Shown here piece after piece: positions 6,094 to 40,035 of a DNA stretch of 64,000 nt. Source of the DNA: Candidatus Thiodiazotropha endoloripes (GTDB taxonomy: Bacteria; Pseudomonadota; Gammaproteobacteria; Chromatiales; Chromatiaceae); contig LVKA01000021.1 in NCBI GenBank assembly GCA_001709035.1, forward strand, positions 248,001 through 312,000, written 5' to 3'. The notes under the pieces are model-generated. The model ran no database searches. It was not told the DNA's origin and saw only the letters and a list, made by a program, of their open reading frames with translations. The stretch's first letter is position 1. Each line of letters starts with the position of its first letter. Both the position numbers and the translations under genes were made by a program.

Positions 6094-7309
6094 TCACACA
6101 GTCACTCTCAGGGCGGTCGTAACCCAATGTATCGAGGGTTGTAAACTGATGAAGAAATCCCTTCTGAGGGGAGACTGAAATCGTTAACCTGGCTGAGGTG
6201 ATCAACAGGGGTTGCCTGAGCTGGTTGCTCCAGTCACGAAAGCTGACCGGTCGACCTTTGAAAGCAGCGAGATTGAACGCGGGTCCGATAATGTAAGGGT
6301 GCAGCCGATCCACCTGACCACTGGCTGTACGCGTAGCGGCTTCCCCGATACTGCGTACCGCCAACCATGCAGAGAAGTCGCGATCAGTCATCCAGCGAGC
6401 ATGCTGTTCATTGAAGCGACGCTGAAATTGCGTTGCTCCCCACTGCTCATGAACCCCACTCCAGGCAACAGGCGAAAGGCCATGGGTGCCACCAACAGGT
6501 CTGGGTCGATAGGTACGGTAGATCAGGAATTCTCCAAATTCGTCTGACTCGTCGGCAACAATCAGAATATCGTAATCGCCTACCTGGCTGTACTCATTCA
6601 CCACTTGCTGTTCCCGGTTATGGCCTGAGTCTGTGCGTCTCGCACCTGGTTCGAAATCCCACTGTTTCTGCTCAACGATTTTGTGACCAAAACGCTTGGC
6701 GGCACGTTTCAGAGCCTTGGCATAAGCTTTGTCCTGAGGATGCCGACCTACCACTAAAAACCACTTTGTCCAGCGTTTCCAGGCTAAATATTGGGCGAGT
6801 GCATCTGCCAGCATTGCCCGGCTTGGCATGGTGTGTAACAGATTTGCTCGACACTCGTTCTGCCTTAGATAGTCATCCGTAGCACCAATATTGAATAACA
6901 AGCTCGTTTTTGCTTCTGGCTGATCGGCTACTTTGAGTAGCTTTTTAGCAGGTAAATTGAGTAAAAAAAGTCGAATACCCTGCCCGTGCAGTTTTCTGAA
7001 TGCCTGGGTGGCCGGCTCTTCCGGGTTGACTTTCTCCACGGTGAGCGTAAACGACTGACCGGTGAATCGCCCGGTTGTATTGTTGTCATGAATACCCTGT
7101 AGTGCACCGGCTTCACCGATATCCTCGATTACCGGTTGAAGGAGTGACAAGGGGATATGGCGCCCCTCCTCTTCCGTAATCAATCCAATGGGTATATCAA
7201 GCGTATCAGCATGTAGAGATCCCAGAGACATCCCCAGTAGTAAAACAGCCCAAACAACACTCAATAAGCTGCATTGAATATTAATCTTATTTGAAAAGGG
7301 GTTTCTCAA
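6089..7309 (-). CDS. Periplasmic binding protein-like component of PQQ-dependent alcohol-oxidation ABC system
   Basis: First gene of the four-gene operon, 406 residues. An N-terminal signal segment (LLSVVWAVLLLGMSLGSLHA) precedes a mature chain beginning DTLDIPIGLI. The body contains LFNIGATDDYLRQNECRANLLHTMPSRAM and WFLVVGRHPQDKAYAKAL, typical of the branched-chain-amino-acid-type binding fold adapted in the PQQ-associated ABC family. It probably captures the ligand of the downstream ABC-2 transporter or senses a pathway compound; the ligand is unknown. The end of the gene runs into a MITE-derived palindrome that provides the TAG stop, so the last residues may differ from those of relatives. 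Confidence 0.82.
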   Translation of the reverse strand: MRNPFSNKINIQCSLLSVVWAVLLLGMSLGSLHADTLDIPIGLITEEEGRHIPLSLLQPVIEDIGEAGALQGIHDNNTTGRFTGQSFTLTVEKVNPEEPATQAFRKLHGQGIRLFLLNLPAKKLLKVADQPEAKTSLLFNIGATDDYLRQNECRANLLHTMPSRAMLADALAQYLAWKRWTKWFLVVGRHPQDKAYAKALKRAAKRFGHKIVEQKQWDFEPGARRTDSGHNREQQVVNEYSQVGDYDILIVADESDEFGEFLIYRTYRPRPVGGTHGLSPVAWSGVHEQWGATQFQRRFNEQHARWMTDRDFSAWLAVRSIGEAATRTASGQVDRLHPYIIGPAFNLAAFKGRPVSFRDWSNQLRQPLLITSARLTISVSPQKGFLHQFTTLDTLGYDRPESDCVN

Positions 7310-7657
7310 AGCATCTCCATACTTTGCTAAAGCTCTGTCACCACTTTTTGCAAGTTTTATACCATGGATAGTATAGAGATCAGCAGCGCCAACAGAACGA
7401 ATAGATCACCGATTGCCTCATCATAGTCTAATGGTTAGAAAGATACGAAGGGATATTATCCCGAGAAATAGGGCCTGTTTACGCATAACCTATTAGCCTA
7501 CACATTAAGCTGATTAGGATTGGCATATTTTTTGCGATGCTGTAGTAAGAAAGTATAGAAATAAGGTATCGAAATGCGGTCTTGACGAGTTACGACAACT
7601 TGTTTCATTTCCAGCAACGATAGCAATAAATAACAATTCAACCTGTTGGAGGAATAA
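7310..7657. promoter_or_regulatory. Divergent intergenic region with a MITE fragment
   Basis: 348 bp between the divergent PQQ-type ABC operon and the NitT/TauT-type ABC operon, so promoters for both should lie here. AT-rich stretches are present but I cannot assign a single convincing -35/-10 pair. The bases AGGGCCTGTTTACG near 7470-7483 match the end of the palindromic repeat found at 6068, 16434 and 33282, with one change, and look like a decayed single end. GGAGG at about 7649 is the ribosome-binding site of the next gene. Confidence 0.45.
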
Positions 7658-8677
7658 ATGCATCGTGATAAGAGATTAATAGGCGGTAAAAGCGCCCAGA
7701 TCATTGCGGTTAAAGAATCATTTATTCTTGCCTTAATCCTTCTGCTGCATACTCCTTATAGTTTTGCAGCCGACAACATAAAGATGGCAGTGTTAAAGTT
7801 TGGAACAGTTAACTGGGAACTTGATGTTATAAAACGGCACGGTCTGGATCGTCAGCAGGGTTTCAACCTTGAAGTGTTAGAAATGGCGGGCAAACAGGCA
7901 ACCATGGTTGCCCTTCAGGCGGAATCGGTCGATATTGCCGTCAGCGATTGGATCTGGGTATCAAGACAACGTAATGAGGGCAAAGCATTTACCTTTGTCC
8001 CCTACTCCACAGCGCTCGGCGCGCTTGTGGTTCCCCAGGACTCGCCAATTACACAAATCAAGGACCTGCAAGGATTACGCCTGGGTATCGCCGGAGGGCC
8101 GTTGGACAAGAGCTGGCTGCTGTTACAGGCCCTGGCTTTTCATCAATCCGGGATAGAACTCGATAAAACACTAATCCCTGTGTTTGCCGCCCCGCCACTG
8201 CTGAATCAGCAATTGAAGCAGAAACGCATCGAAGCGGTTCTTAACTTCTGGCCCTATGTTGCCAGGCTTGAAGCGATCGGTATGCGGCAGCTGATCAGTG
8301 TACAGGAGGTATCCCAGGGGTTGGGTATCCGGAATCAGGTTCCCTTCGTCGGTTATGTTTTTGATGAGCAGTGGGCGAAGCAGAATAAACACCTCATTCA
8401 GGGGTTTATCCGCGCAACCAACCAAGCGAAACAGATCATGCTCAATTCCGATCCGGAGTGGGAGCAGCTGAGACCCTTGATGAAAGTCCCGGATGAAGCC
8501 ACATTTATTGCGTTACGCGAGGGATTCAGAGCGGGCATTCCCAGTCAGTGGGGGGCCGCTGAACAAAATGATGCTAAACAACTGTTTGATATACTTTTCA
8601 AACTGGGTGGAAAAAAGCTCGTTGGCAACACCACTCAACTTGCAGAGGGCACCTTCTGGTCAAACAGTGTAGAGTAG
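7658..8677 (+). CDS. ABC transporter periplasmic substrate-binding protein, NitT/TauT (SsuA) type
   Basis: Periplasmic receptor of 339 residues for an uptake ABC system. The ATG follows a strong TTGGAGGAATAA ribosome-binding site. The N-terminus has a long basic segment, then a hydrophobic signal (FILALILLLHTPYSFAADN). The mature part has the family's typical features: FGTVNWELDVIKRHGLDRQQGF near the start, DIAVSDWIWVSRQRNEGKAF, LVVPQDSPITQIKDLQGLRLG and GGPLDKSWLLLQALA. It is followed by its permease four bases downstream and then its ATPase. The transporter lies directly upstream of a formate dehydrogenase operon and may import a C1-related or sulfonate compound, but the ligand cannot be deduced. 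Confidence 0.88.
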   Translation: MHRDKRLIGGKSAQIIAVKESFILALILLLHTPYSFAADNIKMAVLKFGTVNWELDVIKRHGLDRQQGFNLEVLEMAGKQATMVALQAESVDIAVSDWIWVSRQRNEGKAFTFVPYSTALGALVVPQDSPITQIKDLQGLRLGIAGGPLDKSWLLLQALAFHQSGIELDKTLIPVFAAPPLLNQQLKQKRIEAVLNFWPYVARLEAIGMRQLISVQEVSQGLGIRNQVPFVGYVFDEQWAKQNKHLIQGFIRATNQAKQIMLNSDPEWEQLRPLMKVPDEATFIALREGFRAGIPSQWGAAEQNDAKQLFDILFKLGGKKLVGNTTQLAEGTFWSNSVE

Positions 8678-34302: not shown

Positions 34303-34353
34303 ATGTCATAAAGCTGTAATATTTCTAGCATACTATTGTCATCATTCTGTAAT
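34303..34353 (+). promoter_or_regulatory. Tandem Pho-box array upstream of pstS
   Basis: Five 7-mers resembling the PhoB half-site CTGTCAT occur at exact 11-bp spacing: ATGTCAT (34303), CTGTAAT (34314), CTAGCAT (34325), TTGTCAT (34336) and CTGTAAT (34347), separated by AT-rich 4-mers. Two or more overlapping Pho boxes in direct repeat are therefore possible. The array ends about 145 bp before pstS. It implies induction by PhoB under phosphate limitation. Confidence 0.75.
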
Positions 34354-34497: not shown

Positions 34498-35382
34498 ATG
34501 AAGATTCTAAGATCCACTGCCCTACCCATGGCAGCCGCTCTCTTATTGTTCTCTGCACAAGCAGTCAATGCAGCTGATCGTACTGTTGTTCAGAACAAAG
34601 GTTCAGATACGCTCGTGAATGTCGCCCAGGCGTGGGCCGAAGAGTACGGAAAAGTCGATGCCAATGTGGCGATTGCCGTATCCGGTGGTGGATCGGGCAC
34701 CGGTATTGCCGCGATGATCAACGGCACTGTCGATATCGCCAATGCCAGCCGAAAGATGAAATCGAAAGAGATCAAGCTGGCTGAGAAGAAAGGCCAGAAG
34801 CCCATGGAACACGTGGTCGGCTACGATGCCCTGGCTGTCTTCATACACAGCAACAATCCAGCAACTGAATTCAATTATGATCAACTGAAAGCGGTATTTG
34901 CCCGTGGCGGAAAAGCCACCAAGTGGTCTGACATCGGCCTGAGTGTACCGGGCTGCAAGAGCGATAAAATTGTGGTCGTCAGCCGGCAGAACAACTCCGG
35001 TACCTACGCCTATTTCAAAAAAGCTGTACTTGGTAAAAAAGGCAAGTTCCGTCAGGGCACTCTCGACATGCACGGCTCTAAAGATGTCGTCGACCTGGTA
35101 GAGAAAACCCCATGCGCCATCGGCTACAGCGGTCTGGCCTATGCAACTGATCACATCAAAATGGCCTGTATCGCAAAGCAGGCGGGGGATACCTGTGTCA
35201 ACCCCAGCGTTGCAACCGCCAGCGATCGCAGCTACCCGATTGCCCGTCCCCTGCTGATGTACACCAATGGTGAGCCTGCAGGAAAAATCAAAGAGTACAT
35301 GGACTGGGTAAAGAGTGATGTGGGCCAGTGTATCCTGAAGAAAAAAGGCTACGCCCCGACCAGAGATGTGAGTTGTAACTGA
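34498..35382 (+). CDS. pstS: Phosphate ABC transporter substrate-binding protein
   Basis: Periplasmic phosphate receptor of 294 residues. The signal peptide ends LFSAQAVNAADR; the ATG follows GAGGGGAAAT. Phosphate-loop features are NKGSDTLVNVAQAWAEEY, SGGGSGTGIAAMINGTVDIANASR and SRQNNSGTYAYFKKAV. Four cysteines in the second half could form two disulfides. It belongs to the shorter PstS type found outside enterics. First gene of the pst operon, preceded by the Pho-box array and followed by a strong hairpin that may set its higher dosage. Confidence 0.93.
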   Translation: MKILRSTALPMAAALLLFSAQAVNAADRTVVQNKGSDTLVNVAQAWAEEYGKVDANVAIAVSGGGSGTGIAAMINGTVDIANASRKMKSKEIKLAEKKGQKPMEHVVGYDALAVFIHSNNPATEFNYDQLKAVFARGGKATKWSDIGLSVPGCKSDKIVVVSRQNNSGTYAYFKKAVLGKKGKFRQGTLDMHGSKDVVDLVEKTPCAIGYSGLAYATDHIKMACIAKQAGDTCVNPSVATASDRSYPIARPLLMYTNGEPAGKIKEYMDWVKSDVGQCILKKKGYAPTRDVSCN

Positions 35383-35508: not shown

Positions 35509-36582
35509 ATGTCCCATCTTGAAGAACGATTAGAACGAGACCTCAAAGATCTGCACGACCGAGTCGCCAAAATGGGCGCACAGGTTCAGGAGGCTGTTAA
35601 GAACTCGGTTTACGCCTTACAGACCGGCAATCGAAAACTTGCCTTTACCACGGTATTGAATGACAACCCGATCAATCGATGTATGCGGGAGATCGACCGA
35701 ATCTGTCACCGATTTTTTGCTATTCATATCCCCAGCGGCGGCCATCTGCGTCTGCTCTCATCGGTGATCCGCGCCAACATTGAATTGGAGCGTATCGGTG
35801 ACTATGCCGTCACCATCGCGCGCGAGTCCGCGCAGCTCTCCGAACCGCCCAGTGGCAATCTCGGCAGAGAACTGGACCGGGTTGCGGGTGAAACCATGCT
35901 GATGCTGAAACAGTCGATCAAGGCATTCACCGAGTTGAATGCGGAACTGGCAAAAAGCACCATGCTCATGGGGGATGAACTGGAACACAATCTGGACGTC
36001 GTCTATACCGAGATGATGGCCAATGACGATCGACAGCGGGTTGCTGAAGTGCTGGCGATCTTCGTCGTCTTTACCCAACTCAAACGTATCGCTGACCAGT
36101 CAAAGAACCTCTGTGAAGATACGGTATTTGCTGTCACTGGGGAGCAGAAGAAACCGAAAGTCTTCAACATTCTGTTTGTCGATGAGGACAACAGCTGCCA
36201 CTCCCAACTGGCCGAAGCAATTGCCCGTCGTAACCACCCCGATGTGGGCAGGTATCGTAGCGCAGGCAGTGTTGCAGCTGCGGAACTCAACAGCAATCTT
36301 GCCACCTTTCTGCAGAGCAAAGGCATCGACTACAGCCAGGCCGGCATCAACAGCCTCGACCAGTTGACTGAAAAAGAGATCTCAGAGCAGCATGTAGTCG
36401 TTTGTCTGCAAGGTAATATTGAAACCTATCTACCGAAACTCCCATTCCATACTTCTGCACTGGAGTGGGAGCTTGGCGAAATTCCCCATGATGAGGATAG
36501 TCATGATTTTGATCATCTCTACCACCAGCTTGCCGTATTAATTAAGGATTTGATGGAGCTGCTTCGTGGGGAGGGTGCCTGA
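35509..36582 (+). CDS. PhoU protein fused to a degenerate LMW-phosphatase/ArsC-like domain
   Basis: 357 residues. Residues about 1-215 form a PhoU-type helical bundle (LKDLHDRVAKMGAQVQEAV, RANIELERIGDYAVTIARES, FTQLKRIADQSKNLCEDTVF), the regulator that links Pst activity to PhoR signalling. Residues about 218-340 resemble low-molecular-weight tyrosine phosphatase / arsenate reductase: KVFNILFVDEDNSCHSQLAEAIARRN aligns with the usual FVCTGNSCRSQMAEA loop. But the catalytic first Cys is Asp225 and the phosphate-binding Arg is His, so catalysis is not expected. It may sense phosphate or a partner. It lies between pstS and pstC, and pstC starts two bases after its stop. Confidence 0.85.
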   Translation: MSHLEERLERDLKDLHDRVAKMGAQVQEAVKNSVYALQTGNRKLAFTTVLNDNPINRCMREIDRICHRFFAIHIPSGGHLRLLSSVIRANIELERIGDYAVTIARESAQLSEPPSGNLGRELDRVAGETMLMLKQSIKAFTELNAELAKSTMLMGDELEHNLDVVYTEMMANDDRQRVAEVLAIFVVFTQLKRIADQSKNLCEDTVFAVTGEQKKPKVFNILFVDEDNSCHSQLAEAIARRNHPDVGRYRSAGSVAAAELNSNLATFLQSKGIDYSQAGINSLDQLTEKEISEQHVVVCLQGNIETYLPKLPFHTSALEWELGEIPHDEDSHDFDHLYHQLAVLIKDLMELLRGEGA

Positions 36583-36583
36583 G

Positions 36584-37516
36584 ATGCCCGAAGCCAGCTC
36601 AACGAATTTAGCCAGCACCGCGGACTTCGACCGTCGGGACCTGGATTGGTACATCGATAAGGTTGTTCAACTTATCGTCTTTTTTGCTGGCATCTCCGCC
36701 ATCATCTTCATTATCGGTATCTTCGTCTTCATCACCATGGAGGGGCTGGGATTCCTATTTGAGGATTTCACCTTCAAGGAGTTTTTTCTCTCACCTTTCT
36801 GGGAGCCCTCTGATGAAGATGCACCGGAGTACGGTATCCTGGCATTGATTGCCGGTACCGCCAGTGTCACCGGTCTGGCAATGATCGTCGCCATCCCCTT
36901 CTCGCTTGGTGCTGCCATCTATATCGGTGAGTTCGCCACGGGTAAAGTCCGCGAGACACTCAAGGTACTGGTCGAACTGTTGGCCGCCATCCCATCCGTC
37001 GTCTGGGGATTCATCGGCCTGTCGATCATGAACCCGCTGATCATCGATCTATTTGATGTACCGGTCGGTCTGAATGTGCTGAACGCCGGTATCATACTTG
37101 GACTGATGGCGGCACCGATCATGACTTCGATTGCGGAAGATGCACTGAAAGCGGTACCTGACCGCTATCGGGAAGCCGCAGAAGCCCTCGGTGCGACCCG
37201 CTGGCAGGTGATCTTCAAGACTGTGCTGCCAGCTGCAAAAAACGGCTTGCTGGGCGCGGTACTGCTTGGTGTCGGTCGCGGCTTCGGTGAAACGATGGCG
37301 GTGCTGATGGCCACCGGTCATGCGGTGAACATTCCTGGCAGCCTGTTCGATCCGGTGCGGGCATTGACCGCCACCATCGCCGCAGAACTGGGTGAAACCG
37401 CTGTAGGCTCGCCTCACTATCAGGCGCTGTTCACCATCGGCATCTTCCTCTTCATCATTACTTTTCTGATCAACCTGACTGCGGACCTGATTGTCCGTGG
37501 CATCCGTAAGGGGTAA
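36584..37516 (+). CDS. pstC: Phosphate ABC transporter permease PstC
   Basis: Inner-membrane permease of 310 residues with six spans. I chose the ATG at 36584, two bases past the preceding stop and with GGGGAGGG 10 bases upstream; a GTG at 36566 would overlap. Motifs: FWEPSDEDAPEYGILALIAGT (typical PstC region before the permease core), IPSVVWGFIGL and the coupling loop EAAEALGATRWQVIFKTVLPAAKNG. It pairs with PstA, whose gene starts five bases downstream. Confidence 0.93.
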   Translation: MPEASSTNLASTADFDRRDLDWYIDKVVQLIVFFAGISAIIFIIGIFVFITMEGLGFLFEDFTFKEFFLSPFWEPSDEDAPEYGILALIAGTASVTGLAMIVAIPFSLGAAIYIGEFATGKVRETLKVLVELLAAIPSVVWGFIGLSIMNPLIIDLFDVPVGLNVLNAGIILGLMAAPIMTSIAEDALKAVPDRYREAAEALGATRWQVIFKTVLPAAKNGLLGAVLLGVGRGFGETMAVLMATGHAVNIPGSLFDPVRALTATIAAELGETAVGSPHYQALFTIGIFLFIITFLINLTADLIVRGIRKG

Positions 37517-37521
37517 GGCAG

Positions 37522-38391
37522 ATGTTTGCAGAATCCGATCTAAATGCCAGAAACAAACGGGTACAAGGCCTGTTTCGCATGCTTTTTCTTATGATGACCA
37601 TACTGCTGATCGTGCCGGTGGCGATTATTCTGTTCACCCTGGTTTCAAAAGGCGGCAGTGTCATCTCAATCGATTTCCTGTTTACCAATCCCACCGACGG
37701 GATGACCGCCGGCGGTATCTTCCCCGCCCTGTTGGGAACCGTATGGATCGTTGCCGTTGCCCTGCTCGCCTCCGTGCCCTTGGGTGTAGCCGCAGCCATC
37801 TACCTGAATGAGTATGCCGGCGACAACTGGTTTACCCGCCTCATCCAGTTGGCCATCATCAATCTGGCCGGTGTTCCGTCCATTGTTCACGCACTCTTCG
37901 GGGTCGGCGCCTTCGTCATCTTCTTCGGCTTTGGCACCAGCATACTGGCGGCCAGTCTGACACTGGCCATCATGACCCTGCCGATTGTCATCGTATCAAC
38001 CCGTGAGTCACTGAGAGCGGTGCCACAGGCGTTTCGTGAAGCCTGTTGGAATATGGGTGCGACCCGATGGCAGACCATCCGACGGATCGTGCTGCCGAAT
38101 GCGATCAGCGGCATTTTAACCGGTGTAATTCTCGAAGTCTCCCGCACCGCCGGCGAGACCGCACCGATCATGTTTACCGGTGCGGCATTCTTCCTGCCAT
38201 TCCTGCCTCAGGGCGTATTCGATCAGACCATGGCGATGTCGCTGCATCTGTTTGTGGTGGCAACCCAAGTACCAGGCGTACCGGAAGAGCTGCCCTTTGG
38301 TGTGGCGCTGGTACTGATCGCCATGGTGCTGATCATGAACAGCATCTCGATCGCCTTCCGCATGTATCTGCGAGGTAAAAAGAAATGGTAA
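37522..38391 (+). CDS. pstA: Phosphate ABC transporter permease PstA
   Basis: Second permease, 289 residues with six spans. Motifs: FTNPTDGMTAGGIFPALLGTVW, AAIYLNEYAGDNWFTRLIQLAI, LAGVPSIVHALFGVGAFV and the coupling loop EACWNMGATRWQTIRRIVLPNAISG. The ATG follows GGCAG. Its last 7 bases overlap the first pstB gene. Confidence 0.93.
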   Translation: MFAESDLNARNKRVQGLFRMLFLMMTILLIVPVAIILFTLVSKGGSVISIDFLFTNPTDGMTAGGIFPALLGTVWIVAVALLASVPLGVAAAIYLNEYAGDNWFTRLIQLAIINLAGVPSIVHALFGVGAFVIFFGFGTSILAASLTLAIMTLPIVIVSTRESLRAVPQAFREACWNMGATRWQTIRRIVLPNAISGILTGVILEVSRTAGETAPIMFTGAAFFLPFLPQGVFDQTMAMSLHLFVVATQVPGVPEELPFGVALVLIAMVLIMNSISIAFRMYLRGKKKW

Positions 38392-39200
38392 ATCCCAATA
38401 CCAATCTTGAAGTCGAGACAGAACAGGTTGCTGTCGCGGAAGAGGCCCCGGTCAAACTGGAAACCAATGACCTGACCATTAAGTATGGCCAACACACCGC
38501 ACTGAAAGGGGTTAACCTGGAAATACGTGAGCACGAGGTGTTTGGCATCATCGGCCCGGCCAATGCGGGGAAGACTTCGTTCCTGAAATCGATCAACCGT
38601 ATGGATACCTTCGACACCAACATGTCGGTTGAGGGACAGATCAAATTCAATGGACTGGATGTTCAGAATCTGAAGAATATCTATGCCCTGCGCAGCCGCA
38701 TCGGTGTAGTTTTTCCCCTGCCTGTGGGACTGCCTCTGACGATCTATGAAAACGTTGCCCTGTCACCCAGGCTGCGAGGCATAAACAGAAAAAGCGAACT
38801 GGATATCATCGTTGAGCGATGTCTGACCCGAGCCGCTCTTTGGGACGAGGTGAAAGATCGCCTGAACTCACTCGGCAGCCTGCTCTCCGGCGGACAGCAA
38901 CAGCGCCTGACCATTGCGAGAGCACTCTCACAGGAACCGGACCTGCTGATGCTGGACGAATTCTCGATTGCCGTCGATCCGGTTACCACCATGCGTATCG
39001 AGGATGTACTTAAAGAGTTGAAGCAGGATATGACCATTATCCTGGTCACCAACTTGGTTCAACAGGCACGACGCCTGGCCGACCGGACCGCCTTTTTCCT
39101 CGAAAGCGAATGTGTCGAAGTAGGCAATACGGAGGATCTCTTCACCGGTGAGGTGAAGGACCAGAGAACCCGTGATTACGTCGAGGGTAAGTTCGGCTGA
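38385..39200 (+). CDS. Divergent PstB-like ATPase 1 (LSGGQ kept, Q-loop and H-loop lost)
   Basis: 271 residues, in the place of PstB. Compared with standard PstB: Walker A is GPANAGKTS (usual GPSGCGKST; Lys and Thr kept, one Gly now Asn). The Q-loop reads VVFPLPVGLP, so the Gln is Pro. The signature LLSGGQQQRLTIARAL is perfect. Walker B is LLMLDEFSIAVDP (DEP changed to DEF, D-loop altered). The H-loop reads LVTNLVQQARR, so the catalytic His is Asn, about residue 223. It probably binds ATP but does not complete a competent site by its own motifs; with the second PstB it could make one good and one degenerate site. It overlaps pstA. Confidence 0.88.
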   Translation: MVNPNTNLEVETEQVAVAEEAPVKLETNDLTIKYGQHTALKGVNLEIREHEVFGIIGPANAGKTSFLKSINRMDTFDTNMSVEGQIKFNGLDVQNLKNIYALRSRIGVVFPLPVGLPLTIYENVALSPRLRGINRKSELDIIVERCLTRAALWDEVKDRLNSLGSLLSGGQQQRLTIARALSQEPDLLMLDEFSIAVDPVTTMRIEDVLKELKQDMTIILVTNLVQQARRLADRTAFFLESECVEVGNTEDLFTGEVKDQRTRDYVEGKFG

Positions 39201-39243
39201 TGCCGGTGCTTAGGGCCAGTTAAAAACGAATACGAATACCAAT

Positions 39244-40035
39244 ATGAATGCCATAATTGATCAAGACGACAACCAATCCCCTGAGTATGCCATTCACACC
39301 CGGAATCTGAATCTGTGGTATGGCACCTTTCAAGCTCTGTTCGATGTGGATCTAAGCATTCGAAACGGCATGATCACCTCGCTGATCGGTCCATCGGGCT
39401 GTGGTAAATCGACCTTTCTACGCAGTGTCAACCGCATCAATGAGCGTCTGGGCTATGTACGTATCGAAGGTGACATCAATGTCCTGGACAACAATATCTA
39501 CGATCCAGCCGTCGAACTGGTGCAGGTCAGAAAGCAGATCGGCATGGTATTCCAACGCCCCAACCCGCTACCGATCTCGATCCGTGACAACATTCTGTTC
39601 GGCCATCGGCTGCACAACAAAGGCTCCAAGGCTGATCCGGATGAGATCGTCGAGTCCGCACTCAAGCAGGTGCTGCTGTGGGAGAAGGTCAAAGATCGTT
39701 TGAACCATAAAGGCACCGAACTCTCACTGGAGGAGCAGCAGAAACTCTGCATTGCCCGGTTACTGCCGGTGAAACCCAGCGTGCTGCTGATGGATGAGCC
39801 CTGCTCCGCCCTGGACCCGAAGGGAACCGCCGCAGTAGAGGAGTTGATCTGGGAACTGCGTGGTGAATACACCATTCTGATTGTGACCCACAACATGGCT
39901 CAGGCCAGACGGGCCAGTGAAGAGTGCATCTTCATGCTGATGGGTAGAGTGATCGAGCATCAAGCGACAGAAGATCTGTTTGTTACCCCGGAGCAGAAGG
40001 AGACGGCGGATTATATTGAAGGTCGGTATGGTTGA
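39244..40035 (+). CDS. Divergent PstB-like ATPase 2 (Walker motifs and H-loop kept, signature lost)
   Basis: 263 residues. Walker A GPSGCGKSTFL, Q-loop GMVFQRPNPLPISI, Walker B LLMDEPCSALDP and H-loop IVTHNMAQARR (His about residue 216) are all canonical for PstB. The signature, normally LSGGQQQRLCIAR, is LSLEEQQKLCIAR (about residues 160-172): both glycines are gone. The bases coding it (39721 on) are in frame with no sign of error. The ending DYIEGRYG is standard PstB. The gene follows the first pstB by 43 bp and ends the operon. The two proteins have complementary losses, which suggests that they work as an obligate heterodimer. Confidence 0.88.
   Translation: MNAIIDQDDNQSPEYAIHTRNLNLWYGTFQALFDVDLSIRNGMITSLIGPSGCGKSTFLRSVNRINERLGYVRIEGDINVLDNNIYDPAVELVQVRKQIGMVFQRPNPLPISIRDNILFGHRLHNKGSKADPDEIVESALKQVLLWEKVKDRLNHKGTELSLEEQQKLCIARLLPVKPSVLLMDEPCSALDPKGTAAVEELIWELRGEYTILIVTHNMAQARRASEECIFMLMGRVIEHQATEDLFVTPEQKETADYIEGRYG

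Follow-up and report, generated by a model that had tools for sequence, protein, structure and literature searches.

The pst operon and its two PstB proteins

The window examined here, a stretch of 64,000 nucleotides from Candidatus Thiodiazotropha endoloripes (contig LVKA01000021.1, positions 248,001 to 312,000), carries on its plus strand a single operon-like run of genes for a Pst-type importer, in the order pstS, phoU (fused to a further domain), pstC, pstA, pstB1 and pstB2. Textbooks present Pst as the high-affinity importer of phosphate, with an ATPase in the form of a symmetric homodimer. Here the run closes with two ATPase genes, pstB1 (38385..39200, +) and pstB2 (39244..40035, +), both recognized by a match to the PstB model TIGR00972 and by alignment. 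This model is the best family for both proteins and is spanned over its full length by each of them. With scores of 278.2 bits for PstB1 and 329.0 bits for PstB2, both fall short of the curated threshold, 343.2 bits, so the pair is easily overlooked.

Alignment with Escherichia coli PstB locates the differences between the two chains. Along the ATPase motifs, PstB1 reads GPANAGKTS, VFPLPVGLP, LLSGGQQQR, LMLDEFSIAVD and VTNLV, and PstB2 reads GPSGCGKST, VFQRPNPLP, ELSLEEQQK, LLMDEPCSALD and VTHNM. In PstB1, the Q-loop Gln is replaced by Pro and the H-loop His by Asn, and Walker A and the D-loop are altered, leaving a degenerate Walker side; LSGGQ is kept, as are the Lys in Walker A, the Asp in Walker B, the catalytic Glu and the D-loop Asp. 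The signature, changed to LSLEE, is the sole motif lost in PstB2, in which Walker A, the Q-loop, Walker B and the H-loop His are intact. All the changes that the initial annotation had described are borne out by the alignment, which refines them by the Lys, Asp and Glu residues still present in PstB1. Neither chain contains a complete set of ATPase motifs, and exactly one of the two composite sites of a PstB1-PstB2 pair would be complete. Single-chain models reached a mean predicted local distance difference test score (pLDDT) of 86.0 for PstB1 and 88.6 for PstB2, with E. coli PstB (9k3s and 9k3x) as the top two PDB matches for both; these predictions confirm the fold only.

The remaining genes of the run belong to families of phosphate transport, with PstS, PhoU, PstC and PstA all above the curated NCBIfam cut-offs of the phosphate models. 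The phosphate-binding protein PstS (34498..35382, +; 294 aa) is of the PstS_2 subfamily and scores 237.9 bits with TIGR02136 (cut-off 206.6). The permease subunits PstC (36566..37516, +) and PstA (37522..38391, +) score 280.1 bits with TIGR02138 (cut-off 196.45) and 260.9 bits with TIGR00974 (cut-off 193.45), respectively. The coupling (EAA) loop of PstA, REACWNMGATRWQT, is largely conserved in relatives and differs from both canonical PstAs compared; one of the two PstBs may dock there. Upstream of pstS, a consensus scan detected a PhoB-box-like array (34303..34353, +) of four overlapping 18-mers in 11-nt steps. With up to three mismatches from what we take to be the Pho-box consensus, the scan returned 10 matches in the window against 7.35 expected, and 4 of the 10 lie within these 51 nt. 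The family models and the array together point to high-affinity phosphate uptake as the putative function of this Pst system. A transcriptome study of Ca. T. endolucinida describes host-dependent pst expression, the operon concerned being unspecified in the accessible part of that source (PMC13137333).

Conservation and phylogeny of the PstB pair

Among 195 genomes of the order, PstB1 was identified in 45 (44 full-length, with at least 72% identity, and one partial), and none of the matches listed beyond these exceeded 46% identity. PstB2 was found in 46 of the same genomes at an identity of at least 77%. In all 45 genomes with PstB1, pstB2 is adjacent and both genes lie behind pstA; in the window's genus, the pair is present in 18 of 22 sampled genomes. 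Another 6 genomes in the class sample (369) and 23 in the phylum sample (378) contain the same clade, counts that exclude the window and members of its genus. Where the contigs are long enough, pstS, pstC, pstA and phoU also neighbour the pstB genes in most relatives. Wider searches yielded at least 581 relatives, the best 80 of which, ranked by likeness to PstB1, are referred to as the named loci. PstB1 is present in 80 of these and PstB2 in 79, on the same strand and in the same order, with a median gap of 28 nt; the locus without pstB2 (L190) stops at a contig edge right after pstB1. As a consequence of this ranking, the conservation of PstB1 motifs is partly selected, whereas the presence and motifs of PstB2 are unaffected. 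The named loci derive mostly from metagenome bins, some of which seem to represent a single organism under several bin names (L200 compared with L203 and L204). The labels in the trees span 11 phyla: Pseudomonadota, Gemmatimonadota, Planctomycetota, Acidobacteriota, Nitrospirota, Bacteroidota, Binatota, Myxococcota, Verrucomicrobiota, Poribacteria and Eiseniibacteriota. On plasmids, all 129 records matching at an E-value of 1e-60 are less than 60% identical to PstB2, and the pair was not seen there. Four genomes of the phylum sample (G613, G629, G660 and G684) have two PstB1-type matches apiece.

The motif changes are nearly invariant. Pro in the Q-loop, Asn in the H-loop and an intact LSGGQ occur together in 149 of 149 distinct full-length PstB1 sequences, a count that excludes a partial row (G155) and a piece of a broken gene (G154). 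Across all 151 distinct PstB1 rows, LSGGQ, the H-loop Asn and the Walker B Asp-Glu are each found in 151; the Q-loop Pro is found in 149, the other two being these non-full-length rows, and the Walker A Lys in 148, with one Arg and two gaps. Among 150 distinct PstB2 rows, Leu-Glu replaces both glycines of the signature in 144 of 144 readable rows, and the His is kept in 144 of 144 readable rows. Five PstB2 rows end before the signature, and one piece, split by unread bases in L236, explains the odd Walker A letters. As a control, 26 of 26 canonical PstB rows retain the Q-loop Gln, the His and LSGGQ (MSGGQ in one); these are 26 of the 32 rows of their group, from which six GlnQ/HisP-type rows were set aside, as were five rows of third PstB-like proteins. 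The co-occurrence of the losses in related genomes, on which the initial annotation had made its proposal depend, is thus what the loci read display, and all 45 PstB1 genomes of the order are paired.

Both genes are under purifying selection. The ratio of nonsynonymous to synonymous substitution rates (dN/dS) is 0.088 for pstB1 (44 pairs) and 0.054 for pstB2 (32 pairs), next to 0.044 for pstC and 0.037 for pstA, with pairs limited to a dS of 0.05–1.5 within the window's genus. In PstB1, invariant positions are more frequent within the lost motifs (17 of 23) than elsewhere in the protein (64 of 225), a difference with a Fisher p of 2.5e-5 over 26 rows. The pairwise distances of PstB1 and PstB2 are correlated over 72 loci (r = 0.868), and none of 1000 permutations gave a value as high.

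In one genome of the order, G154, the region 6340–7746 of locus L117 holds several pieces of a broken pstB1 (residues 88–271, at 6340–6882) and an intact pstB2, which stands directly before phoB-phoR; the remaining operon genes lie outside the stretch read. The phoB gene starts 18 nt behind pstB2 in G154 and in five sister genomes, and these sisters carry the full operon; given this shared spacing, the G154 locus looks like a broken operon, the front of which has probably been lost.

A 130-row tree unites the 49 PstB1 rows in one group and the 44 PstB2 rows in another, each at 100/100 with the bootstraps unsettled, and both groups were recovered again in two later trees. In the 130-row tree, L166 is the row nearest to the window, in agreement with a Thiodiazotropha origin. 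The PstB, PstB1, PstB2 and third-protein rows together are split from six GlnQ/HisP-type rows at 100/100. A related pair was encountered around L238, a locus from Akkermansiaceae. In a sample of 240 genomes of its phylum, 20 loci were read among 44 matches listed, and eight of them (L282–L288 and L293) contain a Verrucomicrobiota-type (V-type) pair. Its first protein, V1, has Ala in place of the Q-loop Gln, Asn in place of the His, and LSGGQ; its second, V2, has LP[LM]DQ as signature and otherwise intact motifs. Of the other loci read, six (L276–L281) contain pairs of the window's type (B-type), and six (L289–L292, L294 and L295) a single canonical PstB. Judged by its motifs, the V-type pair shows the asymmetry in a milder and less derived form. 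A tree with 24 PstB1 and 24 PstB2 rows, omitting the six GlnQ/HisP-type rows and the third protein of L240, places V1 as sister to PstB1 (100/99) and V2 as sister to PstB2 (100/97). After removal of 43 motif columns, the support is still 99/96 and 98/94, respectively. A convergent origin of the Verrucomicrobiota pair, considered as another possibility, is disfavoured because the grouping survives this removal. These relationships indicate that the complementary loss preceded the split of the two types, unless the root misleads; the letters have changed and the logic has been kept. We regard this history as the line of evidence that speaks most strongly for a functional asymmetric dimer. Intermediates below about 60% identity were sought in the Pseudomonadota samples and in the 240-genome sample around L238.

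In four Poribacteria loci, a third PstB-like protein is encoded behind the pair (L235, 8091–8852; L239, 8926–9690; L241, 6951–7706; L242, 8544–9275). These proteins have altered motifs, such as GPANSGKST, VFRKPTLFR, LSIGQ and ATNKR, and their four rows form one clade. An Acidobacteria bin has a more altered PstB-like protein behind the pair (L240, 7561–8286), with LTTSM as signature and a very long branch.

Other phosphate genes in the operon and in pair-bearing genomes

The phoU gene (35509..36582, +) encodes a protein of 357 aa in which PhoU (TIGR02135, 133.1 bits, cut-off 130.25) is joined to a low-molecular-weight (LMW) phosphatase/ArsC-like domain that lacks the catalytic Cys; PF01895 and PF01451 are both above cut-off. 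Among 128 PhoU-like sequences from the window and the loci (123 distinct), 126 are at least 334 aa long and have the C-terminal LMW-phosphatase/ArsC-like stretch, although the fused window protein served as the query and favours fused forms. L240 and L241 have a plain PhoU. In the column of the catalytic Cys, Cys is found in 0 of 126 fused sequences, and Asp in 118 of the 127 rows with a letter. The Pfam match to the fused domain is weak or absent in divergent members, and a PhoU match is absent within the stretch read in 20 of the 80 named loci, some of these stretches being short or cut. The fused domain may be a conserved pseudo-enzyme domain that binds phosphate. In 22 of 148 loci, of which two are one and the same contig, pstB2 is followed at a distance of up to 221 nt by a phoB-like gene on its own strand.

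The presence of a canonical PstB elsewhere varies among pair-bearing genomes. The window's genome has one in a full second pst operon on contig C18. When G154 and 14 genomes that carry the pair were searched with the PstB model (15 genomes in total), the cut-off was exceeded in G155 only. No PstB beyond the pair was found at an E-value of 1e-55 in seven relatives (G025, G027, G033, G035, G038, G064 and G106), and G047 has in addition a truncated fragment of a third PstB, which contains a stop. Eleven further PstB-like matches (194–239 bits; G051, G095, G137, G142, G155 and G185) first looked like additional PstBs; the four that were scanned (G051, G155, G142 and G185) fit best as GlnQ or HisP types, and six of the eleven fall on one far branch of the tree, the other five being unread. 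Among 10 genomes with named loci, only the pair was found at an E-value of 1e-60 in four (G918, Dechloromonas SSD3; G919; G923; G926), one of which is labelled a complete Dechloromonas chromosome. Two others (G925 and G927) have canonical PstBs above the cut-off, and three (G920, G921 and G922) have a third PstB-like match of more than 300 bits. These only-pair genomes indicate that a canonical PstB is not always present. The initial annotation had regarded a further canonical pstB serving this operon as damaging to its proposal; one does exist in the window's genome, and none was found in the seven relatives or in four of the 10 named genomes at the respective thresholds. In G927, a second adjacent PstB pair (C448, 34850–36467), with both proteins above the cut-off, lies apart from the asymmetric pair of L238. 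In the nine genomes searched for other phosphate carriers, PHO4 (Pit-type) genes were found in eight and Na/Pi-type genes in nine, which rules out the Pst pair as the sole phosphate transporter.

The proposed heterodimer and competing explanations

In ATP-binding cassette (ABC) proteins, each ATP site combines Walker A, Walker B, the Q-loop and the H-loop of one chain with the signature of the other (PMC7756269). The Walker side of PstB2 with the LSGGQ of PstB1 would form one complete site, and the Walker side of PstB1 with the LSLEE of PstB2 one degenerate site; a homodimer of either protein would have two crippled sites. We consider it probable that PstB1 and PstB2 pair as a heterodimer in which one site hydrolyses ATP and the other is degenerate, and that this heterodimer powers a phosphate importer of the Pst type (PstS-PstC-PstA-PstB1-PstB2). 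ATP would be hydrolysed at the complete site. Since the A-loop Tyr, the Walker A Lys and the Walker B Asp and Glu are kept in PstB1, we infer that the degenerate site acts as an ATP clamp with slow or no turnover, as in asymmetric ABC exporters. This asymmetry may bias the conformation of the transporter and hence the signal to PhoU/PhoR. In E. coli PstB, the Q160K (signature) and E179Q (catalytic Glu) mutations block transport and lock signalling in opposite states (PMC5775613). By analogy, a naturally changed signature at one site suggests a role in signalling.

Several observations weigh against this interpretation. G154 retains an intact pstB2 (267 aa) directly behind its broken pstB1; the earlier expectation that neither gene would occur alone holds for the 45 genomes with the adjacent pair, G154 being the exception. 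In G688, pstB1 (L165) and pstB2 are on different contigs, and none of the 79 loci inspected for a natural pstB1-pstB2 gene fusion contained one. The trees do not settle whether PstB1 and PstB2 are each other's closest relatives among PstBs, and shared inheritance of the operon would also produce the correlated distances of the two proteins. The catalytic Glu of PstB1, kept in 151 of 151 rows, differs from the situation in many degenerate exporter sites, and with it the degenerate site may still hydrolyse ATP slowly.

This last point leads to the possibility that the heterodimer is real but LSLEE is a working, non-standard signature, so that both sites hydrolyse ATP and the changes are a form of tuning. 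The Walker B Asp-Glu and the nearly universal Walker A Lys of PstB1 fit such an arrangement, as does the differing dependence of ABC transporters on the H-loop His (PMC7756269). We find it unlikely nonetheless: in every readable PstB2, Leu-Glu stands in for both glycines and faces a side without the Gln and the His, and the less derived V-type clade pairs the same losses by different letters. A comparably low probability is given to the view that the complex is mainly a phosphate sensor, its crippled ATPase serving with PhoU as a slow or non-transporting signalling platform. The phosphatase-like PhoU fusion without its Cys in the same operon, the phoB-like gene behind pstB2 in part of the loci and the other phosphate carriers of these genomes would suit it. 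One site is, however, predicted to be complete, PstS, PstC and PstA are present and conserved with the low dN/dS of the permease genes given above, and the PhoU match is missing from 20 named loci as far as they were read.

That PstB1 and PstB2 instead form separate homodimers, as alternative ATPases for one permease, seems very improbable to us. The tandem PstB1 and PstB2 of Enterococcus faecalis have non-equivalent roles (PMC12096839), and G154 retains PstB2 beside a broken PstB1. Yet both E. faecalis proteins keep their motifs according to the accessible part of that report (PMC12096839), a PstB2 homodimer would lack LSGGQ and a PstB1 homodimer the Q-loop Gln and the His at both sites, and PstB2 accompanies PstB1 in every PstB1 genome of the order. 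Transport of another oxyanion, such as arsenate, is no less remote. The domain fused to PhoU resembles an arsenate reductase (TIGR02691, 35 bits, far below the cut-off), but the scores of PstS, PstC, PstA and PhoU with the phosphate models and the PhoB-box array speak for phosphate. Ordinary decay of copies made redundant by the canonical operon on contig C18 can be rejected with near certainty in view of the purifying selection, the invariance of the substituted letters and the spread over distant lineages. Moreover, some genomes yielded no PstB beyond the pair at the thresholds given above, and the one real case of decay, G154, looks different. The initial annotation had argued that losses which interlock do not look like decay, and the motif invariance and low dN/dS uphold that argument.

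Compared with known systems, the heterodimer proposed here combines familiar elements in a different way. The operon content and the PstB fold resemble E. coli PstSCAB (9k3s and 9k3x), with PstS, PstC, PstA and PhoU fitting the phosphate models. The E. coli complex uses one canonical PstB twice, modelled as a homodimer (PMC5775613), whereas two complementary degenerate PstBs are encoded here. Tandem pstB genes in one operon are shared with Firmicutes, such as E. faecalis PstB1/PstB2 and Bacillus subtilis PstBA/PstBB, the latter modelled as one complex (PMC11466899). In contrast to the window pair, the E. faecalis proteins retain the four motifs checked (PMC12096839), and the Listeria pair, read here, retains the Q-loop Gln, the His and LSGGQ or MSGGQ; the E. 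faecalis paper states, in its accessible part, that the relative contributions of tandem pstB paralogues were unpublished before it (PMC12096839). One canonical and one degenerate site over two nucleotide-binding domains (NBDs) is the design of asymmetric ABC exporters (Pdr5, TAP and MRP1). Pdr5, for example, has LNVEQ as signature and a replaced H-loop His (PMC7756269). In these exporters the catalytic Glu is often changed, whereas PstB1 keeps it. Among importers, RbsA and NupO also have one degenerate site and give this kind of site a precedent (PMC11466899), but their two NBDs are fused in one chain and the Walker A Lys is lost, whereas here there are two genes and the Lys is kept. The importer ATPases DppD and DppF are likewise encoded by two different NBD genes, both with working motifs (PMC12136057). 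The initial annotation knew of no such description for the phosphate importer, and our literature search agrees: in the titles and abstracts covered, which leave out most subscription journals, there was none on a PstB1/PstB2 heterodimer, a degenerate or pseudo-ATPase PstB, or a PhoU-arsenate-reductase fusion describing this system.

More tentatively, and as an idea we hold to be possible rather than probable, the pair may mark an ancient, separate branch of Pst systems in about 11 phyla, in which an obligate asymmetric ATPase heterodimer, with one catalytic and one degenerate site, is usually accompanied by a pseudo-phosphatase PhoU. The degenerate site and the PhoU domain would then form a phosphate-sensing module, and transport and Pho signalling would be read from different ATP sites. 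If the heterodimer is confirmed, it would show that one-site catalysis works in a Pst importer, the asymmetric pair being fixed in environmental lineages, among them Thiodiazotropha symbionts, Accumulibacter, Dechloromonas, Magnetococcales, Gemmatimonadota, Planctomycetota, Acidobacteriota, Verrucomicrobiota and others. Such a pair would allow the contributions of each ATP site to transport and to PhoU/PhoR signalling to be told apart in a natural system, for which only point mutants have been available so far.

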